This document shows, one piece after another, positions 7,917-26,594 of a stretch of 44,098 nucleotides of DNA. The stretch is from a virus. The position numbers and the translations under genes are program-made. Numbering within the stretch: position 1 is the stretch's first letter; each line of letters starts with the position of its first letter. The stretch spans positions 1 through 44,098 of the IMG/VR virus record IMGVR_UViG_3300024265_000103. One strand, written 5' to 3'. Below the pieces are notes generated by a model, which did no database searches, was not told the DNA's origin, and was given only the letters and a program-made list of their open reading frames with translations.

Positions 7917-8145
7917 AGAAACAGGTGAGATAAAAAGGTTTGCAGAGAATGAAGCTGTTCCAAATATGTTTTATGGGATTCAAGAAGAGCAAATGACTGA
8001 CAAACAAAAAGTTGAAATGGCTGTAAGTAAATATGATAATAAATCTGAACTTGGAAAAATATTTACAGGTAATAGAGCTGAACGCAGAAAACTTGAAAGA
8101 ATGGTGAAAAAAGAACTTAAAAGGAAAAAAAATGAAAAAATATAA
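7909..8145 (+). CDS. hypothetical basic-tailed protein, 78 aa
   Basis: ATG 7909 is preferred over an in-frame ATG at 7900 because AAAGGAG sits 9 bases before 7909 but directly abuts 7900. The opening MNRETGEIKRF is common in small phage proteins. The last 30 residues are strongly basic (RAERRKLERMVKKELKRKK), suggesting contact with nucleic acid. It overlaps the next gene by 14 bases. No family recognised. Confidence 0.6.
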   Translation: MNRETGEIKRFAENEAVPNMFYGIQEEQMTDKQKVEMAVSKYDNKSELGKIFTGNRAERRKLERMVKKELKRKKNEKI

Positions 8146-8350
8146 ATATAAATTAAAACCCTGTAAGCATGGCGGCTTTTTTATATACAGCAAACAGAAG
8201 TTTAAATGGAAATTAGCTAGGGGATATTTATCCGGACATTTCCCAATAATAGAACATGCTATTGATGCTATCAAACTTAAGCATGTGAATGAAAAAGGAA
8301 ATATTAAAATATCAATAAGTTCTAAATATACAGTGATAAGGGATAAATAA
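8132..8350 (+). CDS. hypothetical basic protein, 72 aa
   Basis: Follows AAAAGGA and ends one base into the clamp gene start (TAATG). The protein is lysine- and aromatic-rich (KYKYKLKPCKHGGFFIYSKQ) with one central H-x(n)-H region. No domain is recognised. Coupling to the sliding-clamp gene suggests replication timing, not function. Confidence 0.55.
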   Translation: MKKYKYKLKPCKHGGFFIYSKQKFKWKLARGYLSGHFPIIEHAIDAIKLKHVNEKGNIKISISSKYTVIRDK

Positions 8351-9444
8351 TGGAATGTAAACGTAAAGATTTATTGGCTGCAGTAGAAAGAGTTATGCCT
8401 GGAGTTGGAAGTGAAAGAGCTCTTCTTGAAGGAGTTCAGACTATTGTTTTTACTGCTTCAGGACTCCATACTTATAATGCCAGAGTTTGTGTTACCTGTC
8501 CTTTTTCAACAGAAGACATAGCTGGTAGTGTCTCCGGAGACAAACTTCATAAATTATTGAAGAAAGGTAAATCAGAAGATTTAATTCTCTCAATAACAGA
8601 AGATGCTTTGGAAATAAAAGCTGGGAAAACTACAGCTTCTTTAACATTTTTTAAAGCTGAAATTGTGCAGAAAAAAATAGCTACTATCCACAGCTTAATA
8701 CCTTCAGAAGATCTCCCAAGAGATTTCCGGAAAGCATTAAGTTGTTGTGGTATTAAAGGTAATATTACTAAATGGTCCGGAGTATATTTTAAAGACTATA
8801 TGGTTTATGGAACCAATCAGGTTGTTAGTAATTTCTTTAATATTTCTCATTCTATGGGAGAGTTTTGGATCAGTCAAAAAAATGTTGAAACTATTCTTAA
8901 AATTAAAACTGGACTGAAAGCTTATGATGTATCTGGAAAAGAATCTGCTGAATGGTTTCATCTCATAGATGAAGATGGTACTATTTTCAGTTTTATTCTT
9001 CAGGATACTGCAACATTTACAGGAGCACTTAATTTCTTACTGGCTCAGGAAGAAGAGGAAGATAATAAAAAATATTTTAATACTAAAATACCTAAAGGAT
9101 TTCTTTCTGCAGTTGATGAATGCTCTGTTTTAAGTAGTAAATCAGATGATGCAAAAAAACAGTTTATCAGAGTTACTTTTAGTGAAGATGAATTACTGTT
9201 TGCTGCAGATAGTAAAAATGGAAAAGTAACCTCTTCAGTAGAATGGACTTCTCCCTTAGTAGCTTTTGATAAAATTGAAGAGGGACGTTACTATGTTGAT
9301 TACCTGAAAGATGCCTCTGAAAAGTGTAAGAGGATTATGATTAAACCTATGAAATTAGCAAAAAATAAAGTCTATCCTCTTATTATCATGACCACCCCAG
9401 GATTCAAATCTATGATTTGTCCTCTGTTTGAAAAAGAAGTTTGA
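8350..9444 (+). CDS. DNA polymerase sliding clamp (beta/DnaN-like), 364 aa
   Basis: The length equals bacterial DnaN (about 366 aa). The layout fits three clamp subdomains: residues 1-115 (open with MECKRKDLLAAVERVMPGVG and contain VSGDKLHKLLKKG, the DnaN position of the first helices), 120-245, and 250-364 ending in a short beta tail (GFKSMICPLFEKEV). Direct identity to DnaN is low, so the call rests on length, helix/strand rhythm and context. The window also encodes a family A polymerase and a clamp-loader ATPase, which would need a clamp. A ring around DNA giving processivity is the expected role. Confidence 0.72.
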   Translation: MECKRKDLLAAVERVMPGVGSERALLEGVQTIVFTASGLHTYNARVCVTCPFSTEDIAGSVSGDKLHKLLKKGKSEDLILSITEDALEIKAGKTTASLTFFKAEIVQKKIATIHSLIPSEDLPRDFRKALSCCGIKGNITKWSGVYFKDYMVYGTNQVVSNFFNISHSMGEFWISQKNVETILKIKTGLKAYDVSGKESAEWFHLIDEDGTIFSFILQDTATFTGALNFLLAQEEEEDNKKYFNTKIPKGFLSAVDECSVLSSKSDDAKKQFIRVTFSEDELLFAADSKNGKVTSSVEWTSPLVAFDKIEEGRYYVDYLKDASEKCKRIMIKPMKLAKNKVYPLIIMTTPGFKSMICPLFEKEV

Positions 9445-9445
9445 T

Positions 9446-9625
9446 ATGATTACCTCAGAAATAATTAAAGAAGCTATGAAAACATTTGGTGGTGTATGTC
9501 CTTTTGACTCTGATGATTGTCCTGGTGGGGAATGTGTTATGGGATGTATGACTCTTAAAAAATGCAATCAATGTGAATGTTCAAAAAAATATAGAGAAAA
9601 ACTGGAGAGACAAAATGGATTATGA
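9446..9625 (+). CDS. small cysteine-rich protein, 59 aa
   Basis: ATG 9446 lies just after the clamp stop; an in-frame TTG at 9428 inside the clamp gene is less likely. Seven cysteines fall in 34 residues (VCPFDSDDCPGGECVMGC, then KKCNQCECS), suggesting one or two metal sites. The C-terminus is basic. No family recognised. Overlaps the next gene by 11 bases. Confidence 0.55.
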   Translation: MITSEIIKEAMKTFGGVCPFDSDDCPGGECVMGCMTLKKCNQCECSKKYREKLERQNGL

Positions 9626-16647: not shown

Positions 16648-17613
16648 ATGGTAGAGATTAATCGGGACTTAAGAGCCGATAAGCAGATCAATAAAAATTT
16701 GCTGGATGTAGAAGCAGAGATGCAGCCTTATGTTTATGGTGAATGGGCTATGCTTGTAGTTAATGCAAAAGAAGATGTTGATAAAGCAAAATTGAATCTG
16801 GATAAAGTAAGAGCTGAAAGATTTATGTTTCATAAAACACCAGATGAACCTGGAGGAAAGGTTCCCACAGATAAATTGGCTGAAAGTCTTACGGTTATTG
16901 ATGAAGAAGTAATGGAAGCACAGAAAGTTTTTATTACTACTAATAAAGCTCATGGTTACTGTCGTGTAGCTGAAGAAGCTATGCAGCAGAAAAGAAGCAT
17001 GATTAAAATCCTCACTGAATTACACACTACTAAATATTTTCTTAAAGAAGAAGTAAGTGCTGATGTTCGTGAAAATAAAAAGAAAACCAAAGATGCTGCA
17101 ATTGAGGCTATGGATCTGAGTATTTCTGAAATGAATAAGAAGCGCAAGAAGAAAAAGAAACTTTCTAAACCTGAACCAGTAATTATTGATGATAATGAAG
17201 AGGAGGAAGAGGAAGAAATTGATGATAACGATGAAGAACTCTATGATGAAAATGATGGTATTGGTACTTCTGATCCGGAACTTGAAGAAGATGAAGATCT
17301 TGATGTAGATATGGATGAAGAAGAGGAAGAAGTTGTTGTTCCTCCCAAAACCAAAAGATCTGTAAAAACAGGTACTGCAGCCGGAAAACTTAAAGCTCAA
17401 AAACCTACTAAAAGAAAAATCAAAGAACAGGCTGAGATCAATCAGGTGGAAGGGAAAAAAATTCAGAAAAAAATAGCTGATAAGAAAAAAGCTGAAAAAC
17501 CTGAAGGTAAATGCCCTGCTGGTTATTCTTTTGGTAAATCTTTCGGATTAGAACCTGAATGTGATGACTGTGAAATAGATAATGATTGCTTTAAAGCAAG
17601 ACCTAAAAATTAA
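16648..17613 (+). CDS. acidic protein with C-terminal Cys module shared with the SSB, 321 aa
   Basis: Residues 1-160 are helical and charged; about 175-230 are an acidic low-complexity linker (runs of E and D); 230-280 are lysine-rich; the last 35 residues form a Cys module, CPAGYSFGKSFG then PECDDCEIDNDC. Nearly the same module ends the next protein. Such modules end several phage DNA-metabolism proteins and probably bind zinc. A recombination or replication mediator role next to the SSB is inference. GGAGG supports the start. Confidence 0.65.
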   Translation: MVEINRDLRADKQINKNLLDVEAEMQPYVYGEWAMLVVNAKEDVDKAKLNLDKVRAERFMFHKTPDEPGGKVPTDKLAESLTVIDEEVMEAQKVFITTNKAHGYCRVAEEAMQQKRSMIKILTELHTTKYFLKEEVSADVRENKKKTKDAAIEAMDLSISEMNKKRKKKKKLSKPEPVIIDDNEEEEEEEIDDNDEELYDENDGIGTSDPELEEDEDLDVDMDEEEEEVVVPPKTKRSVKTGTAAGKLKAQKPTKRKIKEQAEINQVEGKKIQKKIADKKKAEKPEGKCPAGYSFGKSFGLEPECDDCEIDNDCFKARPKN

Positions 17614-17627
17614 AGGAGTAGTAAATT

Positions 17628-18803
17628 ATGGCTACAAAAAAGAAAAAATCAAGAAAAGTAGGATCTGAAAGGGTTGAATCCCATGTTAATACCAATAATG
17701 CCAGGGGAATGTCTTCTTATACTGGAGTTTTTGATTTTAAAAAATTGAAGAAAAAACCTGAAGTATTCAAAGTTACAAGAGGTAAATCAAACAGATTTAA
17801 TATCATTCCCTTTGAAATTAAATCTGATTTATTCCCAAAGGTAGCTTCCGGAGATCTGGAAGTGGGTGATCTGCATTATTCAATGGAATATTATGTTCAT
17901 AAGAATGTGAACAAAACAAAAGATATTCTTTGCCTCCAGAAAAATTATGGAAAACCCTGTGCCTTATGTGATGCTTCCAGAGAATTATGGGATGAATACA
18001 ATGAATCCGGCAGTGAAAAAACTAAAAAACTGGCTATTAATTTGGGAGCCAAAAGAAGAGCTGTTTACAATGTCAAACCTGTGACAGGTGAAGACAAAGG
18101 TAAAATCATGTTCTTTGATGCTTCCACCTTTATATTTGGTGATGAACTTGCAGATGCTGCAAAAGAATGTGCTGATGGTGAGGGTGTTATTGCCTTTTAT
18201 GAAGTTGAAGATGAAGGTAAGATTGTTAAGTTTCTCGTTCCGGAAGATAAAAAGAAACAGTTCAAACAGTTTTCTTTTATTGACAGGAAAAAACCTGTTC
18301 CGGATTCTGATATTGATAAAGCTTTTTCCTGGGATGAAGCTCTTGTACTTATGACTAATAAGGAAATCAAAGAATTCTACTTCGGTGAAGATGATGAAGT
18401 CAGTGATGATGAAGATGAAGAAGAACTTGATGATGAAGAAGAGGAGGAAGAAGAAGGTGACGAACCTGATGATGATGACTCTGATGAAGATGATGACGAG
18501 GAAGAAGACGAAGAAGATGATGCTGACGATGATGATTCTGATGGAGAAGATGACGAGGACGATGATGAGGATGATGACGAAGAAGAAGAACCTGTAGTTG
18601 CCAAAAAAAAAGTAAAAAAGAGCAACAAGAAGAAGACTTCCTCGACGACATCCCATTCTAAATCATCTCCCAAAAAGAAATCTTCTAAAAGTAAATGTCC
18701 TGAAGATTTTAAGTTTGGCCCTGATTATGGAAAACATCCGGAATGTGATGACTGCGATTTGGAAATGGCCTGTTATAAAGCCAAAAAAGCCAAAAAGAAA
18801 TAA
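17628..18803 (+). CDS. gp32-like single-stranded DNA-binding protein with long acidic tail, 391 aa
   Basis: Basic N-terminal arm (MATKKKKSRK), then an OB-type core with a His-Cys3 zinc site: H91, C102, C111, C114 (spacing close to T4 gp32 H64/C77/C87/C90). From about residue 250, some 70 residues are almost pure D/E, like the gp32 C-terminal recruiting tail but much longer. A Cys module, CPEDFKFGPDYG then PECDDCDLEMAC, ends the protein. It should coat ssDNA at forks and recombination intermediates and recruit partners through its acidic tail. AAAGGAG lies upstream; an intrinsic terminator lies just downstream, fitting a strongly expressed gene. Confidence 0.85.
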   Translation: MATKKKKSRKVGSERVESHVNTNNARGMSSYTGVFDFKKLKKKPEVFKVTRGKSNRFNIIPFEIKSDLFPKVASGDLEVGDLHYSMEYYVHKNVNKTKDILCLQKNYGKPCALCDASRELWDEYNESGSEKTKKLAINLGAKRRAVYNVKPVTGEDKGKIMFFDASTFIFGDELADAAKECADGEGVIAFYEVEDEGKIVKFLVPEDKKKQFKQFSFIDRKKPVPDSDIDKAFSWDEALVLMTNKEIKEFYFGEDDEVSDDEDEEELDDEEEEEEEGDEPDDDDSDEDDDEEEDEEDDADDDDSDGEDDEDDDEDDDEEEEPVVAKKKVKKSNKKKTSSTTSHSKSSPKKKSSKSKCPEDFKFGPDYGKHPECDDCDLEMACYKAKKAKKK

Positions 18804-19162: not shown

Positions 19163-19543
19163 ATGCCATCTGAGGTATACTTAAAGACTGGTGAAGCTTT
19201 AGCAATGATTAAACGATTTGAATTAGAATATTCTATTCAAACCTTAAGATTACAACCGTTTGCCTGGAAGAATCCTAAAGATAAGCATTGGTATTTTAAA
19301 CGAGATCAGCTAATTCAATTCTTAAAAATAAGAAAAGGAACTTCCAAATGGAAAATAATTCCTTTCCCTAAAGATAAAAATCGTACACGAATGTGGAGAA
19401 TTATTGCTATGAATCGTTTAAGAGTAAGTATCTATCAAGGAAAGGATGTAATTCATCATGAAGATTATAACACCCTCAAAGAGCTCCTGGATCGAAAACC
19501 AGGTAAACTCAGCAATAAAGAAGGATATAAAAATGAAAACTGA
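19163..19543 (+). CDS. helix-turn-helix (MerR/excisionase-like) protein, 126 aa
   Basis: Opens VYLKTGEALAMIKRF, then TLRLQPFAWKNPKDKHWYFKRDQL, the pattern of MerR-like 'helix_turn_helix_17' excisionase folds: a first helix, a recognition helix, a beta wing, and a Y-x-F-x-R-D-x-L-x-x-F end. It may bind DNA as a regulator; no integrase is seen. It overlaps the recombinase gene by 11 bases. The fold call is moderate. Confidence 0.6.
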   Translation: MPSEVYLKTGEALAMIKRFELEYSIQTLRLQPFAWKNPKDKHWYFKRDQLIQFLKIRKGTSKWKIIPFPKDKNRTRMWRIIAMNRLRVSIYQGKDVIHHEDYNTLKELLDRKPGKLSNKEGYKNEN

Positions 19544-20765
19544 ATTTGCCAGAACTGGCTGCCATCTACTTGATTTATATTTTGGAGGAGGCAGAGGACT
19601 TGGAATTCCCTATGGAATAGCTATCAATCTATGTGGAGATACTGGTAGTGGTAAATCCATGCTCGGAAATGAAATGATTGCTGCAGAACATCACCATAGA
19701 AAAGATAAGTTTGATTGGCAATATGAAGATGGTGAAAATGGAAATAATTTTGATACTACTGAATTGTATGGTGTAGATATTATGGGAGGCAATCTTTTAC
19801 TTGAACACACAAAAAAACTCCCTATTAGACCTAAAACAGTAGAAGATATGGATGCCAGACTTTCTATCTTTCTTGGAATGCTTCCCAAAAAGCATTTTGG
19901 AATTTATTTTATGGACAGTTTAGATTCTATCTCTGATGAAGATAAAATGAGTCGTTCAAAAAAAAGAAAAGAAGAATATGAGAAAGGTAAAACTTTTGAT
20001 GAAGGTACTTATGGGATGGCTTCTGCAAAGTTCTTAAGTCAGGAATTCTTCCGAACTCAAACAGCTAAACTACAAGGTAGTAAAGTTATATTGGGTATCG
20101 TCAGTCAGGTTCGGGAAAAAATAGGAGCTAAACAATATCAGAAAAAATTAAAAACTTCTGGAGGAAAAGCTAAAAAACACTGGATGGATATAGAAGTGTG
20201 GTTCACTCCTATTAAAGATCTTAAAAATGAAGGTAGTGATCTTGTAAATGGTATCTTTGTAGAAGTAGAAGGTCTTAAGTCCCGTGATGGCAGAATGAAA
20301 AGAAAAGCTCGTTTCCTTTATTATACTGACTATGGTATTGATGATGTTGGAACCAGTCTTACTTTTCTTTATGATATTAGAAGTAAAGACAAAGGTGAGT
20401 ATCGAAAAACTATTGCTAACAATATTCCCTGGGAAGTTGCAGATAAACCCAAATTAGATCTTGCTGGTGTAGTAGAATGGTTAAATTTAAATGAAGGTAT
20501 TAAAAAGAAATATCAAACTTTTAGAAAAAAAATAGATGGTAAAAGAGCTGTTAAACTTAGTATTGTAATGAAATTTATAACTGTCTTTCCTAAATTAAAA
20601 TTGATTTTTGATGATCATTTTGGAGCTCCTATTGATTTCAATACTCTCAGACTTCAAATAATGAAGGATCCTATATTAAAAAAAGAACTTGATAAAAAAG
20701 TTACTGATAAATGGGAAGCTATTGAAGCTGCTGCTAAAAGCGGCCTTGGGAGAAAATACGAATGA
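19533..20765 (+). CDS. RecA/UvsX-like recombinase, 410 aa
   Basis: ATG 19533 is chosen: AAGGA is 8-9 bases upstream, while in-frame ATG 19458 lies deep in the previous gene. Residues 1-40 read TGCHLLDLYFGGGRGLGIPYG then LCGDTGSGKSM (Walker A, about 33-41), the RecA-core opening. Walker B-like YFMDSLDSI is at about 122-130 and VILGIVSQVREKIG corresponds to RecA/UvsX L1-region strands. The length exceeds RecA (about 350) and equals UvsX (about 390). It should form filaments on ssDNA for recombination-dependent replication with the SSB, RuvC-like and SbcCD proteins encoded nearby. Confidence 0.85.
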   Translation: MKTEFARTGCHLLDLYFGGGRGLGIPYGIAINLCGDTGSGKSMLGNEMIAAEHHHRKDKFDWQYEDGENGNNFDTTELYGVDIMGGNLLLEHTKKLPIRPKTVEDMDARLSIFLGMLPKKHFGIYFMDSLDSISDEDKMSRSKKRKEEYEKGKTFDEGTYGMASAKFLSQEFFRTQTAKLQGSKVILGIVSQVREKIGAKQYQKKLKTSGGKAKKHWMDIEVWFTPIKDLKNEGSDLVNGIFVEVEGLKSRDGRMKRKARFLYYTDYGIDDVGTSLTFLYDIRSKDKGEYRKTIANNIPWEVADKPKLDLAGVVEWLNLNEGIKKKYQTFRKKIDGKRAVKLSIVMKFITVFPKLKLIFDDHFGAPIDFNTLRLQIMKDPILKKELDKKVTDKWEAIEAAAKSGLGRKYE

Positions 20766-20995
20766 AAGATCTTAGACAATTAATGAAAGAAAACAATGTG
20801 ACTGACACACAAATGTATGCTAAATATCAGTCATTTACAATTCATATGAATAGAAATCGTAATTTCAGCATGTCTCTTAGAATGGCTTTTAATGATAGAG
20901 AACAATTTGTTCTGGCTGCTTTAGGTTTAAATTATCTGAATGATGCTCTGATGCATAAAATGGAAGACCCTAAGCAAAGAAGGTTATTCAATTGA
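20762..20995 (+). CDS. hypothetical protein, 77 aa
   Basis: Overlaps the recombinase stop (ATGA), GGGAG is upstream, and its stop overlaps the TTG start of the RuvC-like gene. The product is helical, rich in M, N and R. No family recognised. Held between two recombination genes. Confidence 0.55.
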   Translation: MKDLRQLMKENNVTDTQMYAKYQSFTIHMNRNRNFSMSLRMAFNDREQFVLAALGLNYLNDALMHKMEDPKQRRLFN

Positions 20996-21510
20996 TTATT
21001 ATAGGTATAGATCCTGGTGTAGCTGGGGCAATCGCTGCTATCCAACATAAAGAAGTTCTTGAAGTTCATGATCTGCCTCTATTAACTACTTTTAAAACTA
21101 CAAAAACTAAAAGTGGAAAACAAAAAAAGAATAATCAATTAGATATTGAAGAGTTCTTTATTATGTATAAAGACATGGTAAGAGCATGGAGACCAGAATT
21201 AGTAATAATAGAAAAAGTAACTTCTATGCCTGGAGATGGTGCTGTAAGTGCTTTTGCCTTTGGACAGACATTTGGAAGAATTGAAAGTATTATAAGAACT
21301 ACTGGAGGAAGCAGAATTCATTATACTACTCCTCCTGTATGGAAAAAACACCATAAATTACTGAAGAAAGGAAAACAGGCTGCTGTTGAATTATGCCGGC
21401 TTCATTATCCTGATATGATAAGTATTTTTTTAAAAACAAAAGATGGCAGAGCTGATGCTGTACTTATAGCTGAATATGGGAGGTACTTATGCTTAAGTCA
21501 CTTAGATTAG
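20992..21510 (+). CDS. RuvC-like Holliday junction resolvase, 172 aa
   Basis: RNase H-fold resolvase with the four acidic residues of RuvC: D7 in IIIGIDPG, a glutamate in VIIEKV (about 73), and two aspartates in KDGRADAVLIAEY (about 146-150). The length matches RuvC (about 170). TTG start, overlapping the previous stop as TTGA, behind AAGAAGG. Would cut four-way junctions made by the RecA-like protein so DNA can be packaged. Confidence 0.9.
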   Translation: MIIIGIDPGVAGAIAAIQHKEVLEVHDLPLLTTFKTTKTKSGKQKKNNQLDIEEFFIMYKDMVRAWRPELVIIEKVTSMPGDGAVSAFAFGQTFGRIESIIRTTGGSRIHYTTPPVWKKHHKLLKKGKQAAVELCRLHYPDMISIFLKTKDGRADAVLIAEYGRYLCLSHLD

Positions 21511-22739
21511 TTAATTTTCAAGCTCATATTGATTCTTTCATTGAATTGGATGAGGGGATAACGAGTTTAACCGGAGAATCTCACGAAGGTAAAACAGCCA
21601 TCATGAGAGGATTGAATTGGGCTGTTAATAATGAACCTGCAGGAACCGGCTTTATATCCTATTGGGCCAAACATCAAACTAAAAAAGGAATGACTGTAAT
21701 TGATCGATCTTGTAAAGTTGAATGTATTCGGGAAGATGGTTCTATTCTTATTCGGGAAAGATCTCTCAGTTTCAATGGTTATCGAATTAATGGTAAAGAT
21801 CTGGCGAGAGCTGGTGTAGGAGTCCCTGATGAAGTTAAAAAATGGTTTAACATGGGTGAAGTCAATATTCAGAATCAGCATGATAGTCTTTTCTTGCTTC
21901 ATTCAGGCGGTAAAGGAGGCCAGGAAGTTGCAAGATTCCTTAACTCGGTTGTCAAACTGGATGAAATCCCAAGAGCTTTAACTGCTGTAGAAAGTAAAAA
22001 AAGATCTATTAAAAAATTAAGAGAAGCTGAAACTGAGAAAATTACTTCTTGTGAAAGAGATATTAAATCTCTAGGCTGGATTTTGAAAGCTGAACCAGTA
22101 TTTAAACGTTTGGAAAAAGTAGAGAAAGATATTGAAGATTTGGAAGATAAAGAAAACACCATAATCGAAGAAATTGATAAGTATAATGGTTTAAAAGATG
22201 TTCTTGAATTATTTAAATGGACTAAAAATACTTCTCCTTTAGTAGAAAGGTGGTTATCTCTCTATAATAAAGAAGCTCATATACTTGATAATCAAAAGTC
22301 TATAAACATTTCTCTCACTTCTTTTTATAAAAATCAATCAATCTTAGTAGTACATCAGGATTGGCTTCCAGAAGCTGAAAAAGCTATTTCTAAGATAAAA
22401 GAAATTGAAAATGATATAGGTTTTTCTACACTCCATATCCAAAATATTGAACAGCAAATAATAAAACATGATACTGCAATTCTTTTTCTTGAAAATAATC
22501 AACCTTGGTTGGAAAATACTGCTGATAAAATTATGCAATTAGAAATGTTGGATGACACTATTGGAGAATTAGAAAATAAAGAATTAAATATTTCTAATGA
22601 GATCACTCTTTTTGAAAGACATGAGGCATCATTAAAAGAATGGAGCACCATGCTGCAAAAAGATGAAAAGAGACTCCCTGCTATTTGCCCTCTTTGCAAA
22701 TCATCATGGAAAGGGGATAAACATGAAAATAGCCGTTAG
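21489..22739 (+). CDS. SbcC/Rad50 N-terminal half, ending at the zinc hook, 416 aa
   Basis: Opens LKSLRLVNFQAHIDSFIELDEGITSLTGE, the SbcC/Rad50 start, with Walker A GESHEGKT (29-36) and the Q-loop region INIQNQHDSLFLL (as VNIQNQHDS). Residues about 175-395 are coiled coil. It then stops 13 residues after the hook CPLC (C400, C403). Lacking signature motif and Walker B, it cannot be an ATPase alone; those lie in the gene at 24046-24669. With SbcD it would form an Mre11-Rad50-type DNA end-processing nuclease. Start supported by GGGAGG; overlaps the RuvC-like gene by 22 bases. Confidence 0.9.
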   Translation: MLKSLRLVNFQAHIDSFIELDEGITSLTGESHEGKTAIMRGLNWAVNNEPAGTGFISYWAKHQTKKGMTVIDRSCKVECIREDGSILIRERSLSFNGYRINGKDLARAGVGVPDEVKKWFNMGEVNIQNQHDSLFLLHSGGKGGQEVARFLNSVVKLDEIPRALTAVESKKRSIKKLREAETEKITSCERDIKSLGWILKAEPVFKRLEKVEKDIEDLEDKENTIIEEIDKYNGLKDVLELFKWTKNTSPLVERWLSLYNKEAHILDNQKSINISLTSFYKNQSILVVHQDWLPEAEKAISKIKEIENDIGFSTLHIQNIEQQIIKHDTAILFLENNQPWLENTADKIMQLEMLDDTIGELENKELNISNEITLFERHEASLKEWSTMLQKDEKRLPAICPLCKSSWKGDKHENSR

Positions 22740-23598
22740 TGCCGATTTCCATCTCCGGAGAGACCGGCCTAGAGTAAGAACAGATGAAGATTGGATCCTC
22801 TCTCAAAAAAATAATGTGGTAGAACTCTTCAGGAAATGTCGAGATCTAAATGTTGATAAATTGCTTTTAGTTGGTGATATACTTGATTCCTCTAATCAAC
22901 CTCCCTGGGTAGTAAATATTATTCCGGAAGCTATGGACACTGTAAAAGCAGAGGGACCTTGGTCAGTGGAGGTTCATATTATCCCAGGAAACCATGATTT
23001 ACAGCATCACCAGTACGCTAATCTTCATAACAGCAGTATAGGGAACTTAATGAGAATGAAGGGCGTGGTGCCCCATGGTGTGAATAAGAAGTTTGAAAAT
23101 ACTGATTTTCTTGAAGAATTTGGAATTGTGATTATTCATCGATTAATCATGCCTGATGCAAATGAAAGTCTGGCCCGATTAGCAAATGCGGAAATAGCTG
23201 CCGATATCATGGAATCATTTCCTACTGCTGAATTTATACTCACTGGAGATTATCATAAACATTATGTAGAAATATACGAAGATACTATTCTTTTCAATCC
23301 TGGATGTCTAAACCGGCAAAGTGCTGATGAGAAAAATTATGAAGTAGGTTTCTATGCTTTTGATACTGAAGATAGCAGTTATGGGTTTTTCCCATTAGAA
23401 AGTGATGATGTGACCTTGATAGATGATTCATATCTGGTAGAGCAACATGCTCGTGAGGATTCCCTTACAGCATATGCAGAACAATTAGCAAGTTCCAAAG
23501 GTCTGTCTTTTGATCTCTGGGAAGTCGTGAAAAAACTGTCAGTGAACAGTTCAAAACTTGTAAAAAATATATTAGAGGAGATAAGAACTAATGTCTAA
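22723..23598 (+). CDS. sbcD: SbcD/Mre11-like nuclease, 291 aa
   Basis: Calcineurin-like phosphoesterase with all metal motifs: ADFHLRRD (DxH, D8/H10), LLVGDILDSS (GDxxD), IPGNHDLQHH (GNHD) and LTGDYHKH (GDxH), plus NPGCLNRQS. ATG 22723 is preferred, with AAAGGGG ahead; in-frame ATG 22663 lies inside the SbcC half and would add a poor N-terminus. It overlaps the SbcC-N stop by 17 bases. This Mn-dependent nuclease cuts DNA ends and hairpins when coupled to the SbcC ATPase. Confidence 0.92.
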   Translation: MKIAVSADFHLRRDRPRVRTDEDWILSQKNNVVELFRKCRDLNVDKLLLVGDILDSSNQPPWVVNIIPEAMDTVKAEGPWSVEVHIIPGNHDLQHHQYANLHNSSIGNLMRMKGVVPHGVNKKFENTDFLEEFGIVIIHRLIMPDANESLARLANAEIAADIMESFPTAEFILTGDYHKHYVEIYEDTILFNPGCLNRQSADEKNYEVGFYAFDTEDSSYGFFPLESDDVTLIDDSYLVEQHAREDSLTAYAEQLASSKGLSFDLWEVVKKLSVNSSKLVKNILEEIRTNV

Positions 23599-23890
23599 AG
23601 AAATGACTATTGAACAAGTAGAAGCTTTACAGGCTAAAATAGCTGAATTAACCACAGAATGTGCAGAAACTGAAGGAGCTATTAAGCAAATTAAAGCCCA
23701 ATGGAAATCTGAATACAAATGTGATACTAAAGAAGAGATGGAAGCATTACAGAAAGAAACTGCAGAACGTATTTCAATGCTCCAGGTGAAACGAGAAACA
23801 CTCACAGCTAAAATTCAAGAACTTCTTCCGGAAGAAATTCTTAATGCTATAATAGATGATGACGAAGACGAAGAAGATGAAGATTACTGA
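23591..23890 (+). CDS. coiled-coil protein with acidic tail, 99 aa
   Basis: Residues 5-80 are heptad-like (EQVEALQAKIAELTTEC, then EEMEALQKETAERISML), then a D/E tail. GAGGAG upstream; overlaps sbcD by 8 bases. It lies between sbcD and SbcC-C, so it might pair with the split coiled coils, which is speculation. Confidence 0.65.
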   Translation: MSKEMTIEQVEALQAKIAELTTECAETEGAIKQIKAQWKSEYKCDTKEEMEALQKETAERISMLQVKRETLTAKIQELLPEEILNAIIDDDEDEEDEDY

Positions 23891-24053
23891 GTTAGATGTG
23901 GCTTTAGAAGCTATAAAAGACATAGCTAATAAATTGAATATGCCAATAGAAAGTGTAAAAAATGTACTTATTAAATTATCACAAAGAGGAATATCTGGTG
24001 CTAAAGGTGGTAAACTTTTACGTGATAAACTAAAGGAATTGCGAAATGAATAA
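23877..24053 (+). CDS. hypothetical small protein, 58 aa
   Basis: Starts MKITELDVALEAIKDIANKL with a weak GAAGAAG site inside the acidic end of the previous gene; an in-frame ATG at 23856 is the alternative. Looks like three short helices with a basic end (KLLRDKLKELRNE). Overlaps the SbcC-C gene by 8 bases. Could be a small helix-turn-helix; not certain. Confidence 0.5.
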   Translation: MKITELDVALEAIKDIANKLNMPIESVKNVLIKLSQRGISGAKGGKLLRDKLKELRNE

Positions 24054-24669
24054 TACAGCATTAAGAAACATACTGGATAAGAAAAAATATCTCCTGGAAG
24101 AAACAGAAATATCTCTGGAACAGGCTGAACTAAAAAAAGTAAAACTGAGTAAAAAATTAGAAGCTGTGGAAAAAGCTCAGTTAATTATCCAAACAGCTGC
24201 TCATCAAATTGAAAGAAGTATTGCTTATCATCTTTCAGATCTGGTTAATACTCCTCTACAGGCTTTGTTTCCGGGAAATGTATTTGATATCGACTTTACC
24301 ACAAAGAACAACAATAGCCATGCTGCTATCACTGTGGAGAAAGGTGGAAGCAAACAAGCTCCCCTGGATTCTGCAGGTGGTGGACTCGCTGACGTAGTGG
24401 CTTTAGGATTGAGATTAGCTGTATGGAGCATGGGAAAAACAGCTAATTTATTATGTTTGGATGAGCCGGCAAAAAATCTTGATGTGGTCCGGTCTCCTAT
24501 CATGACTCAATTACTAAAAGACATCAGTGATCAATTGGAAGTACAGGTATTATTAAGTACTCATAAAGAGGATCAGATTGACAGTGCTGATCGGGTATAC
24601 AAAATAGTTCAGAAATTCAATAAAAAACTGGGATATAAAGTTTCCAGAGTTAATTTAGTAAGGAGTTAA
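24046..24669 (+). CDS. SbcC/Rad50 C-terminal half with signature motif and Walker B, 207 aa
   Basis: Starts with a coiled coil (residues 5-60), then the C-terminal ATPase lobe: signature-like LDSAGGGLADVVALGLRLA (about 106-124), Walker B plus D-loop LLCLDEPAKNLD (about 135-146) and H-loop LLSTHKED (about 168-175). It has no Walker A. These are the parts missing from the protein at 21489-22739, so the two halves should assemble into one ATPase head. AAAGGAA precedes the start. It may be shorter than an intact half because its coil is short compared with the N-half coil. Confidence 0.88.
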   Translation: MNNTALRNILDKKKYLLEETEISLEQAELKKVKLSKKLEAVEKAQLIIQTAAHQIERSIAYHLSDLVNTPLQALFPGNVFDIDFTTKNNNSHAAITVEKGGSKQAPLDSAGGGLADVVALGLRLAVWSMGKTANLLCLDEPAKNLDVVRSPIMTQLLKDISDQLEVQVLLSTHKEDQIDSADRVYKIVQKFNKKLGYKVSRVNLVRS

Positions 24670-25076: not shown

Positions 25077-26594
25077 TTACTTAAAACGATTTACCATACC
25101 TCCCCCATCTTCAGCAGAACCACCATCTATTATATCAAATTCTTCTATTATCCATACCTTATTAGCTGAAGTTTTGTTTATATAAAAAGTCAACCATGGA
25201 TCTGTACTATGTCCAACTACCATATAAAATCCATCTTCACTAAAAATAGCTCCTTCTGCATTGCCTGTAGGAGGTGTAACAGGATCAGTTAATTTAACAA
25301 AAGTATCTCCAAATCGCTGATATACTGTGACGTATGGAGATGCACCATGTGACACAGTTAAAAATAAATCATTACGAGAAAAACTTGTACGGAACCCTGC
25401 ACCTGCAGGTAGAGATACTGGAGGAGTTAATGCTACCCACGTATTACCATTACGTTTCAAAATATTGATATTTGGTAAAACTGATACACCACAGGCAACA
25501 TAATCACCATTATGAGAAAAAGCTACCCCTCGAATTGTTGATGCTTGTGTTGGAAATGCCATCTGTTTAAGAGCTCCTCCTTCTAATTTATACATATAAG
25601 CATATGGTGAAGACTGTGTTCCTATTAATATAAAATTATTATCTGATGAAAAACCAACACTTATACCATTACTGGCAGGAAGACTTGAAGGATTTGAAAG
25701 TTTTGTAAAAACATCCCCAGAACGAGAATATACCGTAAGATATGGTGTACCTTGATGAGCTACTGCTAAATAATTACCGTCATGTGAAAATGCACAATCG
25801 TGTGCTTGATCAGGAGGCAAACCTCCTGTAGGATCTGCTACTTTTGCAAAAGCATCACCAGACCTCTTATAAATCTGTATAAAAGGTGATTGAACACTGC
25901 TTATAGCTAAGTAAGCAGCATCCCTTGTAAAGGAGGCTCCTTTTGCAGCATTAGTGGGTAAATCTCCTGTAGGATCTGAAAGTTTTGTAAAAGTATCACC
26001 AGCCCGTTTATATATATGAACATAAGGTGTACTACTTGCTGCAGCACCCAAATAAATACCATCATATGAAAATGTCACTCCATTACAAGTGGCTCCAGGT
26101 TTAGTCCCCGGATCAGATAATTTAAGTATACTTCCTGCTTGATAATTCTGTACTCCTTTATAAACTAATACCAATCTGTCTCTAGGATATAAACTTAAAT
26201 ATCCAGCACTTCCTTTTATAGTAAAATATTTTGTTTTATATTCTATAATATGCTCTGCATCTGTTTGTATTACTGTAGCATATCCCTCTGATAAAATATC
26301 AATTGCATCACCTTCAACTGGATTTGCAGGTAAAGTTAATTCATAATCACCAGATATTAAATATTTTTTTCCGAAAACCAAAGTTGTATCTGCTGTAATA
26401 ATTTCTCTAGGCCCGGTAGCAAACAATGCAATGATCCCTACAAGCCAATTTTTAAAAGCAAGCCAATTCCAATGTCTATCAATCAGAGCTGGAGTGCTTT
26501 CATTTGGTAATACTGTGTAAATTACTGCATCATCCGGAAGTACTACAGGATCTACTACATCATAATCTTCAATTCTTTTAAATCCACCAGCCAT
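25077..26594 (-). CDS. tail tip protein with seven-repeat beta-propeller, 505 aa
   Basis: Residues 1-155 are a beta-rich attachment domain. From 158 to about 480 there are seven repeats of 44-47 residues with the pattern K-L-[ST]-x-P ... F-S-x-D-G-x-Y-L ... S-P-Y-x-x-[VI]-Y-x-R-x-G-D-x-F. Repeats start near 158, 204, 251, 298, 344, 388 and 434. Seven such units predict a closed WD40/lactonase-like propeller. It is the last gene of the late operon after baseplate and fibre genes, the usual site for a receptor-binding protein. A short acidic Gly-rich tail ends in VNRFK. TAGGAG supports the start. Receptor binding is inference. Confidence 0.8.
   Translation of the reverse strand: MAGGFKRIEDYDVVDPVVLPDDAVIYTVLPNESTPALIDRHWNWLAFKNWLVGIIALFATGPREIITADTTLVFGKKYLISGDYELTLPANPVEGDAIDILSEGYATVIQTDAEHIIEYKTKYFTIKGSAGYLSLYPRDRLVLVYKGVQNYQAGSILKLSDPGTKPGATCNGVTFSYDGIYLGAAASSTPYVHIYKRAGDTFTKLSDPTGDLPTNAAKGASFTRDAAYLAISSVQSPFIQIYKRSGDAFAKVADPTGGLPPDQAHDCAFSHDGNYLAVAHQGTPYLTVYSRSGDVFTKLSNPSSLPASNGISVGFSSDNNFILIGTQSSPYAYMYKLEGGALKQMAFPTQASTIRGVAFSHNGDYVACGVSVLPNINILKRNGNTWVALTPPVSLPAGAGFRTSFSRNDLFLTVSHGASPYVTVYQRFGDTFVKLTDPVTPPTGNAEGAIFSEDGFYMVVGHSTDPWLTFYINKTSANKVWIIEEFDIIDGGSAEDGGGMVNRFK
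25155..26123 (-). repeat. seven tandem 44-47-residue protein repeats
   Basis: The coding region of propeller blades 1 to 7. Each unit has an FS-x-D/N-G strand, a P-Y/F-x-x-x-Y strand, and a GDxF strand leading to the next unit. Blade 5 is shortest (44 residues) and most divergent. Confidence 0.8.

Follow-up and report, generated by a model that had tools for sequence, protein, structure and literature searches.

Rad50 and SbcC, the motor subunits of complexes that process DNA ends in break repair, are usually seen as one chain whose coil strands meet at a hook. Bacterial SbcCD (SbcC as defined by TIGR00618) and archaeal and eukaryotic Rad50-Mre11 have ATP-binding cassette (ABC) head motifs, an arm tipped by a CxxC hook and SbcD or Mre11 in the operon, and phage-encoded recombination SbcCD is known as T4 gp46/gp47. 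Fusions with SbcD in front of SbcC have been reported, and those of Anaerostipes and Bacillus phage 0305phi8-36 were described as being without one P-loop segment (Yoshida et al., 2011, PMC3175470). The viral record IMGVR_UViG_3300024265_000103 (positions 1 to 44,098; this whole stretch is referred to as the window) has the same head motifs, hook and operon partner, and here SbcC/Rad50 is divided between two genes, an N-half that ends shortly after the hook motif and a C-half, with sbcD and two small genes between them (Table 1). Taken together, sequence, profile and distribution evidence argues, at a probability of about 0.86, for a split but working SbcCD with one of the small proteins, a coiled coil of 99 amino acids (aa), as a subunit.

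The motifs expected of one ABC head were shared out between the two halves. Walker A lay in the N-half, as did a Q-loop whose Q130 did not vary among 21 N-halves, and the CPLC of this half is the predicted zinc hook; a CxxC lay 3-28 residues short of the C-terminal end in 91 of 92 N-halves. The signature, Walker B and H-loop were in the C-half, in which no Walker A was found over its 207 aa, and an xGGGx signature was present in 77 of 85 C-halves. Matches were obtained to AAA_23 (1e-9) and phrog_16465 (3e-17) for the N-half and to phrog_15167 (4e-20) for the C-half. Profiles of the halves matched the N-lobe (E 8e-16) and the C-lobe (E 8e-13) of Rad50, respectively, among solved structures in the PDB, and Foldseek with an AlphaFold2 (AF2) model of the N-half returned Mre11-Rad50 structures at the top. 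No NCBIfam model, the curated SbcC/Rad50 ones included, reached its cut-off for either half. The open reading frames (ORFs), the motifs and the split directly after the hook were thus as the preliminary description had given them, and the lobe matches agree with its identification of the protein.

Two close relatives, L003 and L004, kept the order N-half, SbcD, coil, C-half. Ratios of nonsynonymous to synonymous substitution (dN/dS) against these relatives were 0.22-0.28 for the N-half, 0.09-0.12 for SbcD, 0.08-0.18 for the coil and 0.04-0.09 for the C-half; by this comparison all four genes are under purifying selection. Because profiles match both Rad50 lobes and the two relatives preserve the order under low dN/dS, the halves are not a chance resemblance.

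Table 1. The split SbcCD locus of the window, with the motifs of each half and the two genes upstream.
Feature	Position	Strand	Details
N-half of split SbcC/Rad50	21489..22739	+	416 aa; N-lobe of the ABC head, a long arm and, at the C-terminus, a zinc-hook motif (predicted)
Walker A, GESHEGKT (N-half)	21573..21596	+	G29-ESHEGKT36; G29, G34 and K35 invariant in 21 N-halves
Arm (N-half)	21963..22661	+	residues 159-391; about five helical repeats of 47/48 residues; AF2 helices 159-194, 197-242, 249-391; lag 48, z 3.5-3.7
CPLC half-hook (N-half)	22686..22697	+	residues 400-403, 13 residues before the end; C400 and C403 invariant
SbcD/Mre11 nuclease	22723..23598	+	291 aa; motifs DxH, GDxxD, GNHD, GDYH; phrog_100 4e-11
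Small coiled-coil subunit (predicted)	23591..23890	+	99 aa; conserved partner gene upstream of the C-half
65-aa gene	23856..24053	+	accessory, non-conserved
C-half of split SbcC/Rad50	24046..24669	+	207 aa; short coil and ABC C-lobe
ABC signature, SAGGG (C-half)	24370..24384	+	xGGGx replacing LSGGE; gap-free alignment to Rad50 LSGGE
Walker B, LLCLDE (C-half)	24448..24465	+	D139 and E140 invariant; Walker B in 85/85
H-loop histidine (C-half)	24562..24564	+	H173 invariant; motif STHKED
UvsX/RecA-like recombinase	19458..20765	+	context; phrog_97 4e-15
RuvC-like Holliday junction resolvase	20992..21510	+	context; overlaps N-half start; phrog_1770 4e-27

Around 90 further loci, with identities down to ~20%, were split directly after the hook and came from many unrelated phages, from prophages and from chromosomes. 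Separate N-half and C-half genes were present in 51 of 53 tabulated loci, the remaining two being contig-edge stretches, and 50 also had SbcD. The gene order of the window, N-D-s-C (N-half, SbcD, small coil, C-half), was one of three when relatives were counted and was shared by, for example, a Microcystis phage; the others were N-s-C-D, mostly in Bacilli phages, and D-N-s-C, mostly on chromosomes. Four loci tallied as N-D-C contained a small coiled-coil ORF between D and C that scored under the profile threshold. Bacillus phage vB_BboS-125 had the same plan at 22-25% identity: its N-half ends with CPLC and nine more residues, followed by a small coil and a C-half, and its SbcD is a 326-aa ORF that is unannotated in the record (NC_048735.1, L007:9226-10206). 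Scans added some 35 viral contigs (some of them near-copies), a 485 kb metagenomic phage, a Deferribacterales metagenome-assembled genome and Bacilli. When window proteins were searched by tblastn against annotated phages, the C-half had no match and the N-half hit three weak records, so profile searches were needed. One match of the N-half scan, L006, was discarded as a tape-measure coil, and in Deferribacterota past the one assembled genome only SMC- and RecN-sized one-chain matches were prominent. The C-half tree was built without a full-length SbcC outgroup and therefore does not establish that the split arose only once. A gene for an AP2-domain protein (so annotated in L007) or a similar gene lay between N-half and small coil in several phages and prophages of Bacilli (L007:7386-7958, L014:6062-6601, L029:6059-6760, L038:5811-6320). 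One genome (G112) had two split systems on separate contigs (L141 and L164; C33, C63), one of order N-s-C-D and one of order D-N-s-C.

The C-half profile and the small-coil profile were searched separately against one set of 398 Bacillota species genomes. The small coil was counted at E <= 1e-10, and the C-half count leaves out a fragment at a contig end and three proteins fused into one chain. The C-half was found in 61 genomes and the small coil in the identical 61, directly upstream of the C-half; the three genomes with the fused chain had no small coil. By this co-occurrence the split SbcC has the small coil as an obligate third component. No fusion of the small protein to the N-half or C-half, which would have been a clue to its place, was seen in the 61 strong matches. 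The 99-aa protein of the window resembles the family in place and shape, with a ~45-residue helix, a turn and a shorter helix.

Full-length SbcC (TIGR00618 at E <= 1e-20) was found in 167 of the 398 genomes. It occurred together with the split form in 3 of the 61 split genomes, compared with 25.6 expected (Fisher p 3e-12, uncorrected for species kinship), and by these profile counts the split form replaces one-chain SbcC in these Bacillota. In about one in seven of the species sampled it was the only SbcC detected. The order recA-D-N-s-C-rny, a chromosomal housekeeping place, was present in 21 of 51 loci examined. In three Bacilli checked in which the split form lay on other stretches, host SbcC was present as well. 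Full-length SbcC, which the preliminary description had named as counter-evidence, was not found in the 44-kb record of the window.

The arm of the N-half differed in its construction from known SbcC arms. Self-comparison of 51 arms gave a mean z of 5.7 at a lag of 47, compared with -0.4 in SbcC/SMC arms, and in well-behaved arms the units were spaced exactly 47 residues apart. The hydrophobic period was 3.37 (74 of 79 arms within 3.33-3.39), compared with 3.51 in SbcC/SMC controls. Proline and glycine were enriched at one point of the 47-residue unit, and in the AF2 model of a relative the arm helices were broken about once per 47 residues in the first part. Judged by this periodicity, the arm is not a heptad coil of the Rad50 type, and matching up and down coil strands with heptad periodicity were not found. 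Matches of the arm to leucine-rich repeats and designed coils in the PDB were put down to leucine spacing and not to homology. Arm length ranged 2.6-fold, from 136 to 356 residues, in steps (about 136-149, 180, 241-259, 281-307 and 340-356), while the C-half stayed near 207-227 aa save for start-site extensions (rho 0.02 between arm and C-half length). Since the arm changes in steps of ~47 residues and the C-half is constant, the C-half is not a return strand; the altered head-to-hook geometry suspected from the window is borne out across the family.

Natural fusions joined several of the parts. In Bacillus sp. M6-12 (L046:4614-7313), SbcD and the N-half formed a single 899-aa ORF, followed by a small coil and a separate C-half. 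In three genomes, SbcD, the N-lobe and the C-half formed a single chain of 684-700 aa without arm or hook (L075:3652-5754, L076:3764-5818, L077:4083-6170). These chains sit by an AddB-like gene and are nested in the split clade (support 98/93); they are probably re-fusions with loss of arm and small coil, which suggests that loss of the arm goes with loss of the small coil. Both kinds of fusion support a composite head of SbcD, N-half and C-half.

In the proposed working complex, the N-half (Walker A, Q-loop) and the C-half (signature, Walker B, H-loop) would be the two lobes of one ABC head without a covalent link, and two such heads with SbcD would make the usual ATP-clamped nuclease, as in Rad50-Mre11. 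The arm would be built by the N-half alone as a chain of ~47-residue helical units with the CxxC half-hook at its end, and zinc at the tip could join two N-halves. With arms that differ by single units and a C-half that does not change, no strand should return from hook to head. Two N-arms side by side, with the hook closing the tip, would be the likeliest arrangement; this parallel pairing, which fits the single-unit length steps best, is put forward tentatively, at somewhat less than even odds. The small coil would most likely sit at the base of the arm as a staple between C-half and N-half, standing in for the covalent loop that was lost. In the phage, the complex would probably act together with the neighbouring UvsX-like and RuvC-like genes in recombination and replication.

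Several observations weigh against a working split SbcCD of this design. Glycine stands at the serine position of the C-half signature, where a serine-type LSGGE would be expected, and this change could alter activity. The same may be said of SbcD: the window has GDYH where most relatives show GHxH; GDxH also occurs in L004, L010, L041 and L044, within the N-D-s-C order (6 of 83). The 99-aa protein gave no significant score against the Bacillota small-coil profile and is linked to that family by position and shape. The arm of the window is looser than those of relatives (lag 48, period 3.41), and the two AF2 models of N-halves were of moderate quality (predicted local distance difference test scores 72 and 70, predicted template modelling scores 0.35 and 0.29), so they do not fix the geometry of the arm. 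As a different origin for the locus, an ordinary one-chain sbcC might recently have broken or decayed, which a split gene could by itself suggest. The common split point in some 90 divergent loci and dN/dS of 0.04-0.28 led to the rejection of this origin, and we give it next to no credence; the earlier view of a working split rather than decay agrees with both. No one-chain relative carrying arm and hook was found, and the sole one-chain relatives, L075-L077, are the nested re-fusions; in no relative does an intact single-gene SbcC indicate that the break is recent. The profiles of PADLOC for LmuB and mad3 matched the halves, as they might if the locus were a Lamassu- or MADS-kind defence system instead of a recombination complex. 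These matches reflect the common SMC-like ATPase, however, and such systems have a one-chain SMC-like ATPase with an effector, whereas this locus has split chains, an SbcD partner with its main motifs intact and recombination neighbours (UvsX and RuvC in the phage, recA on chromosomes), and the split form excludes SbcC. A defence system of this kind is highly improbable.

For the arm, two other arrangements were weighed. The small coil might supply the missing return strand, pairing together with the short coil of the C-half along the N-half arm and restoring a two-stranded Rad50 coil. It is a coiled-coil protein, obligate beside the C-half and missing with the arm in the three re-fused genomes, and in the short-armed L044 (arm 136) and L041 (arm 149) the C-half coil and small protein add up to about the arm length. 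Over the whole range of arms, however, most small proteins measure 77-99 aa and the C-half is constant, there is no positive correlation with arm length, and a period of 3.37 is unlike a heptad pair; this pairing is considered unlikely. The suggestion of the preliminary description that the 99-aa protein supplies a partner strand thus holds in that the protein is a true partner, but a strand returning along the arm does not fit pieces of nearly constant length beside an arm that varies 2.6-fold. Alternatively, the N-arm might be folded into helical hairpins or a bundle, with the hook nearer the heads and the arm short and compact. The helix breaks about once per repeat in the AF2 model of a relative and the proline and glycine at one unit point would suit such folding. 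The arms of relatives fall into classes one unit apart (about 250, 297 and 343), though, and if every unit ran back on the one before, such a step would put the hook at the opposite end; AF2 also modelled residues 249-391 of the window as one helix, and this folding is rather doubtful, if slightly less so than the return strand. The parallel pairing of N-arms leads to a broader, still tentative picture, held with less confidence than the split itself: a second Rad50 architecture that combines N-half, C-half, SbcD and small coil. Over-wound N-arms of 47-residue units would be paired in parallel and closed by a zinc hook, the C-half would be a detachable lobe held by the small coil as a staple, and this form may have taken the place of one-chain SbcC across much of the Bacillota and may move on phages.

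The window belongs to a contractile-tailed phage with a DNA polymerase, a clamp, a DnaB-like helicase, a UvsX-like recombinase and a RuvC-like resolvase. The N-half gene comes straight after the resolvase gene, and the five ORFs (N-half, SbcD, 99-aa coil, 65-aa gene, C-half) are all intact and coupled, each beginning within its predecessor; overlaps were 22 nt (RuvC/N-half), 17 nt (N-half/SbcD), 8 nt (SbcD/99-aa) and 8 nt (65-aa/C-half). The ATG at 22723 is the likeliest SbcD start, the listed ORF start at 22663 being merely the first ATG. The 65-aa gene has a weak likeness to part of tape-measure proteins, is missing in L003 and showed a dN/dS of 0.45; it was rejected as a component of the system on its absence and weak constraint, and is dispensable and outside the core. 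Elsewhere in the window, two adjoining proteins (16648-17613 and 17628-18803) have long acidic stretches and a common C-terminal cysteine motif, CPxxxxFG...ECDDC...C. The gene at 25077-26594 (-), like that at 8013-9545 (-) in L003, encodes a tail-end protein whose many repeats, FSYDGxYLAV...P(F/Y)xTIYKRxGDxFTKL, resemble those of beta-propellers.

An open-access literature search found no account of a split SbcC/Rad50, and this ancient working form is apparently undescribed. The PHROG families 16465 (exonuclease), 15167 (ATPase) and 18563 (unknown) are made up of these N-halves, C-halves and small proteins, respectively, those of vB_BboS-125 included; they had been clustered apart and not recognised as parts of a single split SbcC. 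Of earlier remarks, the nearest that turned up is the one on the missing P-loop segment (Yoshida et al., 2011, PMC3175470); the D+N fusion of L046 is likewise without one P-loop segment, and for the published fusions the section consulted reports no separate C-half or small protein. This family indicates that Rad50 can also have separable lobes, a one-way arm and an extra subunit. Naturally split heads would be useful for dissecting ATP clamping, and the series of arm lengths for testing the purpose of arm and hook; the split form may also explain why some Bacillota seem free of SbcC in profile-based surveys.

Compared with bacterial SbcCD and archaeal or eukaryotic Rad50-Mre11, the split form has two polypeptides and a small subunit, a hook at the chain end, no return coil, 47-residue units with a period of 3.37, and xGGGx in place of LSGGE. 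The one chain with a mid-coil hook is replaced by separate genes in all arm-bearing relatives. T4 gp46, by contrast, is one 560-aa chain with CPTC at position 288, mid-chain, arms roughly equal on both sides and a period of about 3.5. In the Pyrococcus Rad50 catalytic domain (1f2t, 1ii8, 3qkr), N and C lobes on separate chains form one head, as proposed here for the two halves; that two-chain Rad50 is a laboratory construct made from a one-chain protein.

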